The notes under the pieces: model-generated
What the model saw: only the letters and a program-made list of their open reading frames with translations
What the model was told of the DNA's origin: nothing
Database searches by the model: none
Made by a program: the position numbers and the translations under genes
Shown here: positions 48,825-55,708 of the stretch, in pieces
Position numbering within the stretch: the first letter of the stretch is position 1
Layout of the letters: the number at the start of each line of letters is the position of its first letter
Assembly: GCF_003991205.1 (NCBI RefSeq)
Contig: NZ_RXOZ01000022.1
Coordinates: 310,001 to 374,000 of the forward strand
From: Georgenia sp. SYP-B2076
Lineage (GTDB): Bacteria > Actinomycetota > Actinomycetes > Actinomycetales > Actinomycetaceae
Direction: 5' to 3'
DNA: 64,000 nt

Positions 48825-49685
48825 TCAGAACAGGTGCGAGTACCCGAGTGCGACGAGGTTCTCGTGCGACGTCGCGAGGCAGTCGAAGGGGTCCCGGCCG
48901 TACTGGTCGTCCTGCTCGATGAGGAGGTACTTCGCGCCGCTCTCGATCGCCTGGTCGATGACGCCCTTCCAGTCCAGGTTCCCCTCACCGACCTCCCCGA
49001 ACTGCACGACGCCCGTGAACGCCGCCATGAACGCCGGGTAGTCGCCCTTGCCCAGGGCCTCGAACGCCGCGGGGGGCATCTTCCCGATGCGGTAGTCCTT
49101 GAGGTGGACGAGGTCGACTAGGCCGGCGTACTCCTTCAGCACGGACTGCGGGTGCAGCCCGCCGCGCTGGACCCAGTGCACGTCGATCTCGAACCGCAGG
49201 TGCGGGGCGTTCTCGCGGATGAGGTCCAGGAGGTACCTGCCGTCGTACTTGGTGAACTCGATGTGGTGGTTGTGGTAGTAGAGCCCGATCCCGTGCTCGG
49301 CGAGCCGGACGGCGGTCTCGTCGGCCGTGCGGCAGAACTCGAGGACGGCGTCCAGGGAGGCCATGGCGTCGAACGGCAGCATGCCGATGCGGACGATGGT
49401 GGCGCCCAGGGTCTTGCAGTCCGCGACGACCTTGTCGAAGTCGGTCACGAGCGAGTCGTTGGCCCCGCCCGGCTTGGAGTCAAGGGTGGCCGAGAGCGAG
49501 GCGATCTCCATCCCGAGCTCGGTGCGGGCGCGGTTGATCTCGGCCACGTTCTCGGGGGTCATCGGGATCTGGGAGATCTCGACGGCGTTGAAGCCGAGCT
49601 CGCTGACCTTCTTGAGGGTCGCGAAGGCGCCGTCCTCCTCGATCTTCTTCTTCAGCATCATTGCCTGGACGCCGATCTTCGCCAT
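48825..49685 (-). CDS. Sugar phosphate isomerase/epimerase family TIM barrel (module enzyme 1)
   Basis: The 286-residue protein is a xylose-isomerase-like TIM barrel. Putative divalent-metal ligands appear in order: Glu in NAVEISQIP, Glu/Asp in RFEIDVHWV, His in LVHLKDYR and Glu in LLIEQDDQ; YYHNHHIEF adds two histidines. In levoglucosan and 3-keto-glycoside pathways such proteins catalyse beta-elimination or hydration of 3-keto sugars. It is last on the minus-strand arm of the sugar module, 114 nt after the Gfo/Idh/MocA gene, and has its own ribosome-binding site GAAGGAGC. Which step it performs cannot be read from sequence. Confidence 0.85.
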   Translation of the reverse strand: MAKIGVQAMMLKKKIEEDGAFATLKKVSELGFNAVEISQIPMTPENVAEINRARTELGMEIASLSATLDSKPGGANDSLVTDFDKVVADCKTLGATIVRIGMLPFDAMASLDAVLEFCRTADETAVRLAEHGIGLYYHNHHIEFTKYDGRYLLDLIRENAPHLRFEIDVHWVQRGGLHPQSVLKEYAGLVDLVHLKDYRIGKMPPAAFEALGKGDYPAFMAAFTGVVQFGEVGEGNLDWKGVIDQAIESGAKYLLIEQDDQYGRDPFDCLATSHENLVALGYSHLF

Positions 49686-49694
49686 GCCAGCTCC

Positions 49695-49728
49695 TTCGTG
49701 TTGGTGGTTGTTTCGTGTTGGTGGTTGT
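49695..49728 (-). repeat. Exact 17-nt tandem duplication in the leader of module enzyme 1
   Basis: Copies at 49695-49711 and 49712-49728 are identical. On the coding strand each reads ACAACCACCAACACGAA, an A/C-rich unstructured stretch directly upstream of the ribosome-binding site. Confidence 0.8.
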
Positions 49729-49799
49729 TCGTGCGGATGGTTCGTGGGACGCGCCGGGGCGCCCGGTGTTCGTGCCGGCCGGGCGTGCGTGCCGGCCGG

Positions 49800-50801
49800 T
49801 CAGACCTCGCGGATGAGGTCGCCGCTCTGCGCGTAGACCTCCTTGAGGATGCGCAACGACGCGGACGCCTCTCGCGGGCTGATCCAGAACGGCCCCTGGT
49901 CCGCCAGCCGGTCGTAGAAGTCACGGATGAGCAGCTCGTGGGAGACGCCCCAGTACGAGCGCCCCGCCGAGGGCGCGGCGCGCTCCGCCACCACCTCGGT
50001 GCGGCCGTCCGCGTACGTGACAGTCAGGTCCTTGCGCAGGAACATCGTGGCGTTCTCGGTGACGATCTCGAGCGTGACCGGGTCGTGCACGACGTTGCCG
50101 AGGGTGGCGTAGAAGACGCTGCGGGCCCCGCCCTCGTGCGTGAGGACCATCTCCGCGGTGTCCTCGACCTCGATCACGTCCGCGAACAGGTGGGTGGCCG
50201 CGTGCCCGCGCACCTCCGTGACGTCCCCCACGAGCCACTGGAGCAGGTCGAGCGTGTGGATCGCCTGGTTGATGAGCACGCCGCCGCCGCTGGTCTCCCA
50301 GCGTCCCCGCCATGGCTTGGCGCGGTAGTACTCGGCCGAGCGCTGCCACATCACCGTGGCGGAGGCGCCGAGGACCTCACCGAGCTCCCCGGAGTCCAGC
50401 AGCGCCCGCATCGCCTGCGACGTGGCGTTGTATCGGTTCTGGAAGCACACGGCGATCTTCGCCCGGCTGCTTTCGGCCGCCTCGACGAGGCGCTCCCCCT
50501 CCGCCCTGGTGTGCGCCAGCGGCTTCTCCATGATGACGTTCACCCCGGCCGCGAGGCAGTCGATGGCCACCTGGACGTGCTGGTGGTGCGGGGTGCAGAT
50601 GTGGACGACGTCGGGATGCATCTCCTCGAGGAGCTGCCGGTGGTCGGCGAAGCCCGGGACGTCGTTCGCGCTCGCCGCGGCGGAGAGCACGTCGGGGTCG
50701 GTGTCGCACACCGCCACCAGCTCGATGCCGGGGATGGCCGTGATGGCCTCCACGTGGATGGTCGAGACGTCGCCGCAGCCGATGATTGCCGCCGTTGGCA
50801 T
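49800..50801 (-). CDS. Gfo/Idh/MocA family oxidoreductase (module; possible 3-keto sugar reductase)
   Basis: The 333-residue protein has an N-terminal Rossmann domain (AAIIGCGDVSTIHVEAI, VCDTD), the catalytic-lysine motif MEKPLAHT, and the C-terminal substrate domain with GGGVLINQAIHTLDLLQWLVG, which holds the expected His and Asp. It is an NAD(P)-dependent sugar or inositol oxidoreductase. By analogy to the levoglucosan pathway, this shorter member could be the final 3-keto-D-glucose reductase (LgdC-like), while the plus-strand member would be the initial dehydrogenase. The assignment is inference. It lies 30 nt downstream of the next TIM-barrel gene. Confidence 0.85.
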   Translation of the reverse strand: MPTAAIIGCGDVSTIHVEAITAIPGIELVAVCDTDPDVLSAAASANDVPGFADHRQLLEEMHPDVVHICTPHHQHVQVAIDCLAAGVNVIMEKPLAHTRAEGERLVEAAESSRAKIAVCFQNRYNATSQAMRALLDSGELGEVLGASATVMWQRSAEYYRAKPWRGRWETSGGGVLINQAIHTLDLLQWLVGDVTEVRGHAATHLFADVIEVEDTAEMVLTHEGGARSVFYATLGNVVHDPVTLEIVTENATMFLRKDLTVTYADGRTEVVAERAAPSAGRSYWGVSHELLIRDFYDRLADQGPFWISPREASASLRILKEVYAQSGDLIREV

Positions 50802-50831
50802 GGGTGCTCCTCTGGTTCAGGGGTCAGGGTC

Positions 50832-51719
50832 TTAGGTCAGGGCGAAGGCCCGCGTCGCCCACGCGTAGGCCTCCTTGAGGGAGTAGTAGGCCGAGTCGAT
50901 GCTCGTCCGGTCGATCTCGATCATGTAGTCACCGTCGTACCCGTCCGGCATGGCCGCGAGCACCGCGTCGAGGTCGACGACCCCGCGGCCGGGCTCCGCC
51001 CAGAGCCGGCCGGTCTCGACCGTCCTGCGGTAGCTCATGCGCCCCAGCCGGCCGGGCTCGAGGTGGTCGCCGAAGACGTCCTTGAGATGGATGCCGCCGA
51101 CGCGCCCGGCGTAGCGCCGCACCATCTGGGCCGGGTCCATCCCGGCCCACCGCAGGTGGCCGGTGTCCGGGCCGAATCCGATGACGTCCGCGCCGAGGGT
51201 GTCCAGCACCGTGGTGACCTCCTCCTCGGTCTCGAAGAGGCCACCCACCTGCGGGTGGAGCAGGGCCCGGAGCCCCTCCTCCTGCAGGGCCAGGCACAGG
51301 GCCCCCAGCCGGTCGACCGCGCCGGCGAGCCGGTCGTAGGAGAAGTCCGCCCCCACGGCCGGGCGGAGCTCCCGGGCCGGCACCATGGCGCCGGCGACCA
51401 TCGTGCGGTCGAGACCGAGGGCGACCTGCTCGGCGGCGAACCGCCTCGCGCGGTTGATCTCGCTCGCGAGGTCCACCGTCTCGTCGAACCGCGCGCTGAA
51501 CAGGCCGGGCGAGGGCGACAGCCCGTACAGGGAGATCCAGTGGTGGTAGTCCGTGGTGCTGACGTCCTCGGGCACGTCCGCCGTCACGGCGGTGAACCCG
51601 ATGTCCTGCAGGTCGGCGAACGCCTGCGCGAACACCGCCGGCGACCTGTCGACGCCGCGGTCCCGGTCCCAGTACAGGATCGGGTTCACGGCCACCCGGC
51701 AGGTGCGGCGCCCGCTCAT
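50832..51719 (-). CDS. Sugar phosphate isomerase/epimerase TIM barrel, IolE-like (module enzyme 2)
   Basis: The 295-residue protein is another xylose-isomerase-like TIM barrel. It resembles inosose dehydratase IolE in its opening AVNPILYWDRD and in GFTAVTADVPED, and has metal-ligand candidates in LLHPQVGGLFE, GFGPDTGHLRWAG, IHLKDVFGD and MIEIDRTSID. Dehydration of a 3-keto sugar is chemically close to IolE chemistry, so a lyase or hydratase role fits the module. The ATG overlaps the stop of the upstream TIM-barrel gene as ATGA, so the two are coupled. Confidence 0.84.
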   Translation of the reverse strand: MSGRRTCRVAVNPILYWDRDRGVDRSPAVFAQAFADLQDIGFTAVTADVPEDVSTTDYHHWISLYGLSPSPGLFSARFDETVDLASEINRARRFAAEQVALGLDRTMVAGAMVPARELRPAVGADFSYDRLAGAVDRLGALCLALQEEGLRALLHPQVGGLFETEEEVTTVLDTLGADVIGFGPDTGHLRWAGMDPAQMVRRYAGRVGGIHLKDVFGDHLEPGRLGRMSYRRTVETGRLWAEPGRGVVDLDAVLAAMPDGYDGDYMIEIDRTSIDSAYYSLKEAYAWATRAFALT

Positions 51720-52543
51720 GCGTATGAGATCTCCTCGCGCGCCAGGATCCCGGTGAAGGCCTCGAACGCCTCGGTGAAGAGCTCGGGCCCGGAGAAGCCG
51801 CCCAGGCTGTGCGCCGTGCTCAGGTGCGGCTCGAGGGAGAAGAAGCCGTCGAAGCCGTCCGCCTTGAGGGCACGGATGGTCTCGACCACCTGGCCGTCAC
51901 CGCCGCCGGCGGGCACGACCTCGCCGTTGCTCAGGTGTGCGTCCTTGATCTGGACGTACTCCAGGTGCGGGCGGAGCAGCGGGAACGCCTCAGTGAACGG
52001 GTGCACCCCGACCTGGACGAAGTTCGCCGCGTCCCACGCGACCTTGAGACTGGGGGACGCCACCGACTCGACGATGTCGAGGCAGCGGCGGGGGATGTCG
52101 CCGTAGATGTCCTTCTCGTTCTCGTGCAGGAGGATGACGCCGCCCTCCTCGGCCACGTCCGCCAGCGCCCGCATGCGGCGGATGACCTCGTCGCGGTGGT
52201 CGTCCGGGTCGTCACCGGGGCGGATGAAGAACGAGAAGACCCGGATGTACGGGGCGTCGAAGTGCTTCGCGACCTCCACCGCGTGCCTCGCCCGCTCGAG
52301 GTGGGCACCAAAGTCCTCGTCGATGAAGATCTTGCCGATCGGCGAGCCGATGCTGGAGACCTGGAGTCCGTGCGCAGCGAGGATCTCCGTCGCCCGCGCC
52401 AGCTGCTCCTCGTCCAGGTCGAGGACGTTGGTGCCCCACGCGCTGCGAAACTCGATGTATTTCAGCCCAAGCTTTTTTACGAGGGCGCACTGCTGCTCGA
52501 GGTCGGGTGAAATTTCGTCGGAAAATCCGGAAAGCGTCCACAT
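51716..52543 (-). CDS. Sugar phosphate isomerase/epimerase TIM barrel (module enzyme 3)
   Basis: The 275-residue protein is the third TIM barrel of the family and the first gene of the minus-strand arm. Ligand candidates are Glu in KYIEFRSAW, Glu in LLHENEKDIYGD, Asp in VAWDAANFVQ, His/Asp in YVQIKDAHL and Glu in FFSLEPHL. The start at 52543 (MWTLSGFSDEIS) has GAGGAG about 11 nt upstream; a longer frame to 52585 is less likely. The first 36 codons are strikingly A/T-rich for this genome, with AAA, AAG, GTA, CTT and TTT codons. Two of the three TIM barrels would suffice for the known levoglucosan route. Confidence 0.84.
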   Translation of the reverse strand: MWTLSGFSDEISPDLEQQCALVKKLGLKYIEFRSAWGTNVLDLDEEQLARATEILAAHGLQVSSIGSPIGKIFIDEDFGAHLERARHAVEVAKHFDAPYIRVFSFFIRPGDDPDDHRDEVIRRMRALADVAEEGGVILLHENEKDIYGDIPRRCLDIVESVASPSLKVAWDAANFVQVGVHPFTEAFPLLRPHLEYVQIKDAHLSNGEVVPAGGGDGQVVETIRALKADGFDGFFSLEPHLSTAHSLGGFSGPELFTEAFEAFTGILAREEISYA

Positions 52544-52591
52544 TTGGGCGCGACTCCTCACTGAGTGGCGAGAACTGAAAATCATGCTCCC

Positions 52592-52643
52592 CCTTTATGT
52601 CACGCCCGCATCGAGGGCAACAACTGGTTGCCACATGTTGCAG
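52592..52643 (-). promoter_or_regulatory. Promoter and operator of the minus-strand sugar-module arm
   Basis: TTGCCC (complement of 52615-52620) and TAAAGG (complement of 52592-52597), 17 nt apart, form a promoter candidate. The -35 box overlaps a perfect palindrome GGCAAC-N5-GTTGCC (52616-52632). Next to it, 52626-52640 carries the 15-mer CAACATGTGGCAACC on the minus strand, a near-copy of the operator before the transporter gene. Confidence 0.55.
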
Positions 52644-52854
52644 CGCGCCCCGCGGCGTGGTCGGCGAACCGCGCGTCGCCATCCGGGTGGGGCGCGGCCC
52701 GGGCACACCACGCCGACCCGCGCCGCGGTCCCTCGCGGCACCGCAAGGCCGCGACAGCCCGCGGTTCGCGCGGGATGAAGACAGCCGGCGGGGGCCGCGC
52801 CGCCCTGACCTGCACCATCGTCGCGGCGACCCGCGGGGCCCGGGTCAGGCCGGG

Positions 52855-52903
52855 TGACAACATATGGCAACCGTTTTGTCGCCGCCCGCGCCACGCCCAT
52901 AGT
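52855..52903 (+). promoter_or_regulatory. Promoter and operator of the sugar-module transporter arm
   Basis: CAACATATGGCAACC (52858-52872) repeats, in inverted orientation, the operator near 52626-52640 with one difference. Just downstream, TTGTCG (52876-52881) and CATAGT (52898-52903) with a 16-nt spacer make a good promoter. The operator abuts the -35 box. The spacer between the two operators (52644-52854) shows no gene and no other clear signal. Confidence 0.55.
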
Positions 52904-52961
52904 GAATCCCGCAAAGGTGCCGCACCAGCGCCCGCCAAACGGCGCGGAACGAGGAATACAC

Positions 52962-54455
52962 ATGGCCGTCACACAGGCGTCGCCGCACACGGCGACCAAG
53001 AGACTTACCTTGAAGAACTATCTCGGCTACGCGGCCGGGGACGCCGGGAACAACCTCGCCTTCTCGATGGCGTCGATGTTCCTGCTGCTCTACTACACGG
53101 ACGTCGTGGGGATCCCCGCGGCCGCCGCCGGGACCATCTTCCTCGTCGTGCGCATCTACGACGCGTTCGTCGACGTGCTCATCGGCCGCCTCGTCGACCG
53201 CACCCACACCCGGTGGGGCAAGTTCCGGCCGTGGATCCTCTTCGGCTCCCTCCCGCTCCTGCTCGCCAGCGTCTGGGCCTTCACCCTGCCGGCCTCCGAC
53301 ACCGTCGGGATGAAGCTGTTCTGGGGCTACGTCAGCTACGCCGTCCTCTCCACGCTCTACTCCGCCGTCAACATCCCGTACGGCTCGCTCGCGGCCACGA
53401 TGACCCAGGTGCCCACCGAGCGCGCGAAGCTCGCTACCTTCCGGTCCCTCGGGGCGGCCGCCACCGGCCTCATGCTCGCCCTCGTCGTCGCCCCGCAGGT
53501 GCAGCGCTGGAGCGCGGCCAACCTCTTCGCCGGCAAGTCCGCCGAGCTCGGCTCCGGCGCCACCCAGGCCCAGCTCGACGCCGCCCAGGCCGCGGCCAGC
53601 GCCGAGGCCTCCACCGGCCTCCAGTCATCCCTGACCACCCTGACCCTGATCTTCGTCGTGGTCGGCTTCCTGCTGTACTTCTTCACCTTCCTCACCGCCA
53701 AGGAGCAGGTGGTCCGCCCGGCCGAGGACTCGGTGAAGTTCGGTGCCGCCCTGAAGATCGTGGTGAAGAACAAGCCGCTGATGTTCCTGTGCGCGAGCGC
53801 GCTGGCGATGATCACCTCAGTCCTGGCGCTGAACACCCTGGGCATCTACTACGCCCGCGACGTCCTCGGCAACGCCGGCCTCTACCCGGTCCTGTCGCTG
53901 CTCATGACCGGCGCGATCTTCGTGGTCGCGCCCTTCGTCTCCAAGATCGTCATCCGCTTCGGCAAGAAGGGCGGCTACCTCATCGGTGGGGCGGTCTTCA
54001 TCGTCGGCGCCCTTCTGCTGTTCGTCGCCCCCGCCTCGACCCCCGCGGTCGCCCTGGTGGCGTACTTCCTGCTCGGCGTGGGCCAGGGCCTGTTCAACAC
54101 CCTCATGTGGGCCATGGAGGCCGACACCGTCGAGTACGGCGAGTGGAAGTCCGGCAGCCGCACCGAGGGCACCACGTACGCGGTGTTCTCCTTCGTCCGC
54201 AAGCTCGGCCAGGCCTTCGGCGGCTTCGCCGCCGCCGGCATCATCGGCCTGACCGGCTACGTCGGCGCCGCGGCCGTCCAGTCCCCCGAGGCCATCCAGG
54301 GCATCCGCATCGCGGCCGGCCTGGTGCCCGCCGCCCTGGCCCTGCTCGCCGTGCTCATCATGGCGAGGTACCCCCTCACGGACTCGCGGTTCAAGGAGAT
54401 CACCACCGAGACCGAGGCACGGAAGGCCGCCGCGCTGGCCGACTCGGCGAACTGA
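52962..54455 (+). CDS. MFS sugar symporter, glycoside-pentoside-hexuronide (GPH) family
   Basis: The 497-residue membrane protein has about 12 helices. GPH landmarks are the N-terminal YAAGDAGNNLAF, the loop VVRIYDAFVDVLIGRLVDRTHTRWGKFRPW, VNIPYGSL and, in the C-terminal half, MEADTVEYGEWKSGSRTEGTTYAVFSFVRKLGQA. A hydrophilic loop with an Ala/Gln-rich stretch sits between helices 6 and 7. It should import a sugar or glycoside with H+ or Na+. GAGGAA precedes the ATG. It is first on the plus-strand arm of the module and is followed, after a hairpin, by the dehydrogenase gene. Confidence 0.9.
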   Translation: MAVTQASPHTATKRLTLKNYLGYAAGDAGNNLAFSMASMFLLLYYTDVVGIPAAAAGTIFLVVRIYDAFVDVLIGRLVDRTHTRWGKFRPWILFGSLPLLLASVWAFTLPASDTVGMKLFWGYVSYAVLSTLYSAVNIPYGSLAATMTQVPTERAKLATFRSLGAAATGLMLALVVAPQVQRWSAANLFAGKSAELGSGATQAQLDAAQAAASAEASTGLQSSLTTLTLIFVVVGFLLYFFTFLTAKEQVVRPAEDSVKFGAALKIVVKNKPLMFLCASALAMITSVLALNTLGIYYARDVLGNAGLYPVLSLLMTGAIFVVAPFVSKIVIRFGKKGGYLIGGAVFIVGALLLFVAPASTPAVALVAYFLLGVGQGLFNTLMWAMEADTVEYGEWKSGSRTEGTTYAVFSFVRKLGQAFGGFAAAGIIGLTGYVGAAAVQSPEAIQGIRIAAGLVPAALALLAVLIMARYPLTDSRFKEITTETEARKAAALADSAN

Positions 54456-54459
54456 CCAC

Positions 54460-54490
54460 CCCCGGGAGCCGGCCCTGCCGGCTCCCGGGG
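54460..54490 (+). terminator. 13-bp intercistronic hairpin
   Basis: CCCCGGGAGCCGG (54460-54472) and its exact reverse complement (54478-54490) enclose CCCTG. It sits between two genes of one apparent operon, so it may attenuate or protect the transporter mRNA rather than end all transcription. Confidence 0.6.
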
Positions 54491-54541
54491 CCGGCGCGCA
54501 CTGACCAACAACCCACGCACGACTGAACGGAGAGCCATCTC

Positions 54542-55708
54542 ATGGCGAACAAGGTGAGGCTCGGCATCATCGGGCTCGGCACGCAGGGATCGATGTACGC
54601 GAAGTTCATCAAGGACGGCATGGTCCCGAACATGGAGATCGGCGCCGTCGCGGACACCGACCCGGCCAAGAAGGAGACGGTCGCGGCGGAGTACCCCGGC
54701 GTGCCCTTCTACGACGACTACGTCGCCATGCTCGACAGCGGCGACGTGGACGCCGTCATCACGTGCGTGCCGCACTACCTCCACCCCGAGATGGGCATGG
54801 CCGCGCTCGAGCGCGGCGTCCACGCCCTCGTGGAGAAGCCCGCCGGCGTCTACACCAAGCAGGTCAAGGAGCTCAACGCCTTCGCCGCGACGAAGCCGGA
54901 GCTCACGTTCGGCATCATGTTCAACCAGCGCATCAACCCGCTCTACCAGCGGATCAAGGAGATCGTCGCGGGCGGCGAGATCGGCAAGATCCGCCACACC
55001 AGCTGGATCATCACCACCTGGTGGCGCCCGCAGGGCTACTACGACCAGAGCGAGTGGCGCGCCACGTGGGGCGGCGAGGGCGGCGGCGTCCTGGTCAACC
55101 AGGCCCCCCACCAGCTGGACCTGTGGCAGTGGATCTGCGGCGTGCCCACGTCCGTGTTCTCCAAGGTGGCGTACGGCTTCCGCCGCGACATCGCCGTCGA
55201 GGACGAGGTCACCGCGCTGGTCGACTACGGCAACGGCGCCACCGGCGTCTTCGTCACCGCCACCCACGACCTCGCCGGCACCGACCGCTTCGAGATCCTC
55301 GGCGACAAGGGCAAGATCGTGGTCGACGGCTCGAAGACCGCCACGGTGACCCGCCTCGTCGACGACGAGCAGAAGCTCAGCGCCAACATGGGCATGGAGG
55401 ACGTCCGCAAGCTCTTCATGGGCACTGTCGACACCGCCGACTACTACTCGTCCGAGGTCATCGAGTTCGAGTCCGCCTGGGGTGCGCAGCACTCCGGCGT
55501 GCTGGAGAACTTCGCCGCGAACATCCTGGACGGTACTCCGCTGCTCGCCCCGGGGTCGGACGGCATCAACGGCGTCCGCCTGGCCAATGCCATCCACCTG
55601 TCCAGCTGGACCGGCCGGGAGGTGCCGCTCGACTTCGACGAGGACGAGTACCTCACCGAGCTGAACACGCGCATCGCCGCGGAGGGCAAGTTCCCCGAGC
55701 GCCGCTGA
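54542..55708 (+). CDS. Gfo/Idh/MocA family oxidoreductase, levoglucosan-dehydrogenase-like
   Basis: The 388-residue protein has the Rossmann motif LGIIGLGTQGSMYAKF, the lysine motif LVEKPAG (Lys99) and the substrate-domain motif GGGVLVNQAPHQLDLWQW (His190, Asp193), the expected catalytic Lys-Asp-His set. The length and the segment TTWWRPQGYYDQSEWRATWG resemble levoglucosan dehydrogenase (LgdA) and related enzymes that oxidise C3 of glucosides with NAD+. I infer that it starts the pathway encoded by this module. GAGAG lies before the ATG. Scyllo- or myo-inositol dehydrogenase is the main alternative. Confidence 0.86.
   Translation: MANKVRLGIIGLGTQGSMYAKFIKDGMVPNMEIGAVADTDPAKKETVAAEYPGVPFYDDYVAMLDSGDVDAVITCVPHYLHPEMGMAALERGVHALVEKPAGVYTKQVKELNAFAATKPELTFGIMFNQRINPLYQRIKEIVAGGEIGKIRHTSWIITTWWRPQGYYDQSEWRATWGGEGGGVLVNQAPHQLDLWQWICGVPTSVFSKVAYGFRRDIAVEDEVTALVDYGNGATGVFVTATHDLAGTDRFEILGDKGKIVVDGSKTATVTRLVDDEQKLSANMGMEDVRKLFMGTVDTADYYSSEVIEFESAWGAQHSGVLENFAANILDGTPLLAPGSDGINGVRLANAIHLSSWTGREVPLDFDEDEYLTELNTRIAAEGKFPERR

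Follow-up and report, generated by a model that had tools for sequence, protein, structure and literature searches.

A divergent six-gene module of Georgenia sp. SYP-B2076 that probably converts imported glucuronides to glucuronate by oxidation and elimination

Introduction

Drugs, steroids and phenolics are discarded by animals and plants as glucuronides, which are also found in polysaccharides of plants and microbes. A stepwise oxidation–elimination–hydration pathway of gut bacteria, with the glucuronide-3-dehydrogenase P2B11, has reportedly been described by Nasseri et al. in Nature (2024, 631:199; doi 10.1038/s41586-024-07574-y). For the eliminase AtOGE, the available part of one study describes Mn bound by H132, D163 and H189 and weakly by E233, with H134 removing the C2 proton (PMC10628242), and an available excerpt on the levoglucosan pathway has LgdB2 as a hydratase that can also eliminate (PMC7676230). 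Here, we analyzed a stretch of 64,000 nucleotides of Georgenia sp. SYP-B2076 (contig NZ_RXOZ01000022.1, positions 310,001 to 374,000; hereafter the window), in which six genes at 48825-55708 form two divergent groups, A–D on the minus strand and E–F on the plus strand.

Based on homology, conserved residues, gene linkage and a shared DNA element, we consider it likely that this module turns imported glucuronide into glucuronate by oxidation, elimination, hydration and reduction. A sequence-only reading of the window had instead proposed a 3-keto-sugar pathway of the levoglucosan type. A literature search for the glucuronide route, confined to open-licence PubMed Central, returned nothing on this gene set; we therefore do not present the linkage to uxaC as new to the literature.

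Results

A probable glucuronide 3-dehydrogenase and its putative eliminase partner

The Gfo/Idh/MocA oxidoreductase F (54542..55708, plus strand, 388 residues) has as its closest solved structure 8tdi, the P2B11 glucuronide-3-dehydrogenase (E 4.8e-149; runner-up 4.8e-29). The match is full-length, with 236 of 384 aligned residues identical (61%) over F residues 3-387. Maximum-likelihood analysis of 30 rows nests P2B11 in the F clade, a 13-row fork with a support of 100/100, to which neither the LgdA nor the LgdC rows belong; the tree is weakly rooted and contains some long branches. We regard F as a probable glucuronide 3-dehydrogenase of the P2B11 type.

The triose-phosphate isomerase (TIM) barrel A (48825..49685, minus strand, 286 residues) has its nearest solved relatives in AtOGE (8bvk; 8e-17) and the lyases BT1 and AL1 (8tct, 5.6e-15; 8tcd, 9.4e-11), whose structure titles read 3-Keto-beta-glucopyranoside-1,2-Lyase. 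Residues H138, H140, E166, D168, H194 and E257 of A align with H132, H134, E161, D163, H189 and E233 of AtOGE, and none of the six varies among 79 A sequences, a set that includes the one from the window and counts one genome twice (L005 and L018). Since the metal-binding and catalytic residues of AtOGE are thus invariant in A, this protein most likely carries out a beta-elimination, with a 3-keto-glucuronide as its probable substrate.

Linkage to hexuronate genes in other genomes

A scan of genome contigs returned at least 583 relatives of F. The named loci are those of the 80 best, which come from Actinobacteria and Firmicutes with identities of 68-82%; for 18 of these loci, the DNA is shorter than 21 kb. 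A match to A is present in 75 of the 80, which makes A with F the most constant pair. D follows in 63, and C appears in one (34%), whereas B is found in 69 loci at E 1e-20 but in 48 at an identity of at least 50%. The glucuronate isomerase UxaC has a match in 65 loci, with an identity of at least 51% in 49 of them and of 26-30% in the other 16. Further neighbors are UxuB-like genes (49/80), LacI genes (47/80), GPH symporters (41/80), ManD (35/80), solute-binding proteins (34/80) and glycoside hydrolases of family 2 (GH2; 13/80, of which 12 are at least 58% identical to a UidA-type enzyme). When scored with NCBIfam models, representatives of four of these families lie above the cut-offs, and the UxuB-like representative lies below: UxaC, one of each kind, with 542 and 640 bits (cut-off 387), the mannonate dehydratase ManD with 685.5 bits (550), the UidA-type beta-glucuronidase with 878.9 bits (544), and a UidB-type glucuronide transporter with 642.4 bits (528).

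No UxaC match was seen in the control regions, namely the six regions L098-L103 with other TIM barrels of this genome and the four regions L124-L127 of the LgdA type. Across 59 relatives, UxaC is present in all eight with a close F versus 22 of the 51 others (Fisher p = 0.0026, with no kinship correction), and G027, which has a distant F match (31%) and no UxaC, is counted among the latter.

Three peculiarities of individual loci were also seen. The 12 loci in which a UidA-type GH2 gene lies beside the oxidative module are L011, L018, L024, L025, L026, L031, L032, L047, L049, L050, L054 and L063. Arthrobacter sp. MI7-26 carries two D and two B-like genes in a row (L029, 4853-7990), a partial duplication of the module. 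Eleven Firmicutes loci, including L013, L035 and L055, have a third, different Gfo/Idh/MocA gene directly behind A; these genes form cluster I and are at least 67% alike, and most of the eleven loci are without D.

A direct repeat shared with uxaC

The divergent control region between D and E (52544..52961) spans 418 bp. When the D–E regions of the genus are aligned, they reveal a direct repeat, GTTGCC-N4-GTTGCC, in two copies each, which is exact in three same-genus genomes (L091, L092, L093) and has one mismatch in each copy of the window. These operator-like copies lie at 52627..52642 (plus strand, 84 bp from the D start) and at 52856..52871 (minus strand, 91 bp from the E start). The whole genome contains three exact copies, and 23 copies when up to one mismatch is allowed, compared to 9 for the pattern read backward. 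One exact copy (G000:C1:125118) is located on contig C1, some 110 bp upstream of the UxaC match, another (C35:203155) about 80 bp before a beta-glucuronidase-like GH2 reading frame, and two one-mismatch copies precede the two GPH genes on C1.

Within the named loci, the repeat occurs no more than 250 bp upstream of 36 of the 65 UxaC matches versus 0.76 expected (from 70 repeat hits in 1,617,535 bases); we use this ratio alone, as the loci are not independent and many are from Arthrobacter. Because the repeat was discovered in the module and then tested at other loci, the uxaC result is not circular. The repeat probably marks one glucuronide regulon. A C-N-A-Y-C motif often stands immediately before it. 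The LacI protein beside uxaC was considered as its regulator and not assigned, since the repeat is direct and LacI sites are palindromic: the available part of a survey of LacI regulons describes palindromes, mostly even with a central CG (PMC4052901).

Gene calls and the remaining proteins of the module

All six reading frames named in the sequence-only reading are present, and Pfam and NCBIfam bear out their families: three TIM barrels (PF01261, Pfam cut-off 31.1; A 54.7, C 59.2 and D 105.5 bits), two Gfo/Idh/MocA oxidoreductases (B and F, above the Pfam cut-off for these families) and one GPH symporter (E; Pfam MFS_2, 319.8 bits, cut-off 27; NCBIfam TIGR00792, 390.8 bits, cut-off 231.35). 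Its remark that no kinase or glycoside hydrolase is present holds for the space between the six genes. C and D overlap by four bases. For D, a start at 52543 is more likely than the end of the open reading frame at 52585, as is a start at 52962 for E rather than 52854; a purine-rich stretch precedes both. In addition, 24 relatives of D align from about position 52543, which fits the shorter D. Three of eight other same-genus genomes searched have a relative of F, and these three (L091, L092, L093) carry all six genes in identical order and orientation, so that the grouping is more than chance; in the remaining five, no F was found at E <= 1e-60.

The symporter E (52962..54455, plus strand, 497 residues from the likely start) has the glucuronide transporter model NF007353 as its best-scoring one (499.9 bits) and is likely an importer of glucuronides. 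The nearest solved relatives of B (49800..50801, minus strand, 333 residues) are 3q2k (4.9e-43) and 3q2i (2.8e-41), which we take to be WlbA, a uridine diphosphate (UDP)-uronate 3-dehydrogenase, followed by P2B11 (8tdi, 6.3e-33). A natural reading of B is that of a C3 reductase, probably acting on 3-keto-glucuronate; both its role and its direction are inferred.

The second barrel, C (50832..51719, minus strand, 295 residues), may be an accessory eliminase or hydratase and is rare: at E <= 1e-35, it was found in 3 of 394 genomes of the class, its own included, besides the three same-genus genomes. Its predicted structure (predicted local distance difference test score, pLDDT, 88.6) is closest to the inosose dehydratase IolE (9zmu, Z 32.0; 3cny, Z 30.7; next Art22, 26.4), and its score against the IolE model TIGR04379 is below the cut-off (81.9 versus 290 bits). 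It shares 28.6% identity with LgdB1 of locus L124 (E 1.6e-13), and its fold matches AtHYD (8ro4) at Z 22.9, with many barrels at similar or higher Z. At L134, a locus of another family, C stands beside D, a LacI gene, UxaC, a UxuB-like gene, a kinase and F (74%); this gene set indicates that C can accompany a glucuronide set. C may replace A there, which agrees with an eliminase role for C. At L135, C (37%) adjoins a B-like gene without F.

The third barrel, D (51716..52543, minus strand, 275 residues from the likely start), is a candidate 2-hydroxy-3-keto-glycal hydratase, assigned purely by elimination. Residues H140, E141, N142, E143, D171, K200, D201, E238, P239 and H240 are invariant in 25 of 25 aligned sequences. 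The predicted structure (pLDDT 93.8) has a fold list headed by the isomerase Art22 (Z 29.1) and epimerases; the AtHYD hydratase (8ro4) follows at Z 24.8, with many barrels at similar or higher Z, and the lyases BT1 and AL1 are not among the 50 matches listed, which excludes nothing. Because LgdB2 performs both hydration and elimination, the division of labor among A, C and D is not readable from sequence.

The rest of the pathway in the Georgenia genome

On contig C1, UxaC (529.5 bits, cut-off 387) is grouped with a LacI gene, a gene resembling fructuronate reductase (253.8 bits, cut-off 603) and two further GPH genes, one of which reaches 473.9 bits against the glucuronide transporter model. 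No UidA-type glucuronidase exceeds the cut-off of 544 bits in the genome (best 187). The best GH2 gene (G000:C35:200305-203076; L128:6806-9577, minus strand) codes for 923 residues with a malectin domain and, judged by eye, a leader resembling those of twin-arginine translocation (Tat), and scores 451.3 bits against the beta-glucuronidase LacZ4 model (cut-off 950). With the repeat upstream, it is a possible secreted glucuronidase of the same regulon. Elsewhere in the genome, a second 3-keto-sugar-like locus (G000:C34:152343-156504; L098) combines three TIM barrels with a Gfo/Idh/MocA protein whose score with the levoglucosan dehydrogenase model is 366 bits, the cut-off being 650. The levoglucosan idea suits L098 better than the module of the window.

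Discussion

The following scheme is inferred from the evidence above, in its individual reactions and their order as well as in the direction of B, the regulation and the roles given to C and D. The module would be inducible and use stepwise chemistry in place of a glucuronidase. E would bring in the glucuronide, and F, with nicotinamide adenine dinucleotide (NAD), would oxidize the 3-hydroxyl of its glucuronic acid unit. A, as a metal-dependent TIM barrel, could then remove the acidified C2 proton and expel the aglycone by beta-elimination, which would leave a 2-hydroxy-3-keto-glycal uronate. Addition of water by a hydratase, for which D is the candidate by exclusion and C or A itself the alternatives, would give 3-keto-glucuronate, which B would reduce to glucuronate, with NAD returned. 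The glucuronate would pass to UxaC and the fructuronate-reductase-like enzyme, whose genes stand together at another place in the genome, behind the same operator-like element. C would be an accessory barrel of the IolE/LgdB1 type, perhaps a second eliminase for other linkages.

Several observations weigh against this assignment to glucuronides. The function of P2B11 is the label given by the structure depositors, and E misses the cut-off of its glucuronide transporter model (528 bits). The IolE-like fold of C argues against a uniform reading of the module, and the 19.9 kb of L134 read hold no match to A, B or E. Among the named loci, 15 of 80 are without a UxaC match in the available DNA, and the weaker B matches that account for the drop from 69 to 48 loci, mostly from Firmicutes, lie apart from the window's B in the tree. 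The third exact copy of the repeat (C23:302722) has no recognized sugar gene nearby. In this genome, UxaC is on a different contig from the module, not adjacent to it. The UxuB-like proteins scored (254 and 261 bits) fall below the fructuronate reductase cut-off of 603, and the genome search returned no ManD above cut-off, the UxuA type not being part of that search; with a UxuB-like protein below cut-off and no ManD, the route downstream of glucuronate is incomplete.

How do other explanations fare? A pathway for levoglucosan or a neutral glucoside, with F as LgdA, A or C as LgdB1, D as LgdB2, B as LgdC and glucose as the product, would draw on identical enzyme superfamilies. It also gains from the resemblance of C to LgdB1 as found at a genuine LgdA locus, and, according to the available part of PMC10066097, levoglucosan loci may carry extra barrels (LgdB3 and LgdB4). 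We nevertheless regard it as very improbable. The LgdA motif pattern that the sequence-only reading saw in F finds no backing in the levoglucosan dehydrogenase model NF052479 (cut-off 650 bits), at which F fails with 53.3 and B with 97.4 bits, compared to 748.9 bits for the LgdA of L124 as a positive control. F is only 24.6% identical to this LgdA as against 61% to P2B11, which sits in the F clade with LgdA and LgdC outside. The four LgdA-type regions are without UxaC, and neighbors in other genomes (UxaC, mannonate dehydratase, UidA-type and UidB-type proteins) favor glucuronides. For F and B, levoglucosan is rejected on the basis of the model with its LgdA control, the pairwise identities and the tree. 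What is supported is the 3-keto chemistry that the sequence-only reading proposed, namely oxidation, elimination and re-reduction with no hydrolysis inside the module. Its guess of a C3 oxidation followed by beta-elimination is probably right, and its substrate is not supported.

The fold of C, for which IolE structures lead the next match by several Z units (32.0 and 30.7 versus 26.4), invites the thought of inositol catabolism, in which F and B would be IolG-like, C an IolE, and A or D IolH/IolI-like; F and B do reach 105.9 and 104.9 bits with the IolG model. Every one of these scores is below its cut-off (IolG 355, IolE 290), however, and we rejected this option, the least probable of those considered, after a whole-genome search with both models gave no match over cut-off (best 121.8 and 81.5 bits); hexuronate genes as neighbors in other genomes also speak against it. 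The placement in inositol-catabolism clades that the sequence-only reading named as its refutation, examined in part, holds for C alone, which is IolE-like, and not for the module as a whole. A uronate module without glycoside cleavage, in which F and B would epimerize or rearrange a free or bound hexuronate via its 3-keto form and the barrels would be isomerases or epimerases, fits the presumed WlbA relatives of B and the isomerase- and epimerase-like fold of D. It is hard to reconcile with the complete AtOGE eliminase site in A and with the constancy of the A–F pair, and we consider it very improbable.

Within the preferred assignment to glucuronides, a broader version can be envisaged. The module would be one arm of a genome-wide glucuronide regulon marked by the direct repeat, with a secreted GH2 enzyme alongside the intracellular stepwise route, and C would be a second eliminase of the IolE/LgdB1 type that opens glucuronides A cannot (e.g., alpha-, thio- or C-linked), so that one oxidase serves two eliminases. 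Taken as a whole, this combination is doubtful.

The gene set is reassigned from levoglucosan to glucuronides. Across many Actinobacteria and Firmicutes, relatives of an enzyme from a gut metagenome are linked to the breakdown of hexuronates. The DNA element makes the regulon testable, and the genome points to a genus with a stepwise route but no UidA-type hydrolase over cut-off.

Comparison with known systems

The module most likely belongs to the known stepwise oxidation–elimination pathways, aimed at glucuronides. Its unusual points are a surplus barrel of the IolE kind, an operator-like element in common with other genes and a stepwise route in a genome with no UidA-type hydrolase over cut-off. 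It resembles uidABC-like operons (UidA hydrolase, UidB importer) in its UidB-like E, and in 12 of the 80 named loci a UidA-type GH2 enzyme lies beside an F module; it differs from them in that the best UidA-type score in this genome is 187 bits. With the levoglucosan pathway LgdA–LgdB1–LgdB2–LgdC, as far as the available parts of its descriptions go (PMC7676230, PMC10066097), it shares the proposed order of steps, the superfamilies and the likeness of C to LgdB1, whereas F and B fail the LgdA model and substrate, transporter and neighbors differ. Compared to AtOGE of Agrobacterium (8bvk), A has the same metal-binding and catalytic residues and is expected to act on 3-keto-glucuronides, while the available part of the AtOGE study gives 3-keto-glucosides as the substrate and a flavoenzyme for the C3 oxidation (PMC10628242), a step assigned here to an NAD-dependent Gfo/Idh/MocA enzyme. 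Closest is the stepwise pathway of gut bacteria: F is 61% identical to P2B11 over its full length and falls in one clade with it, and A is related to the lyases BT1 and AL1. In contrast to that pathway, the module is an aerobe-type actinobacterial set with its own GPH importer, an A that is AtOGE-like rather than BT1-like, a third, IolE-like barrel and a DNA element in common with uxaC.

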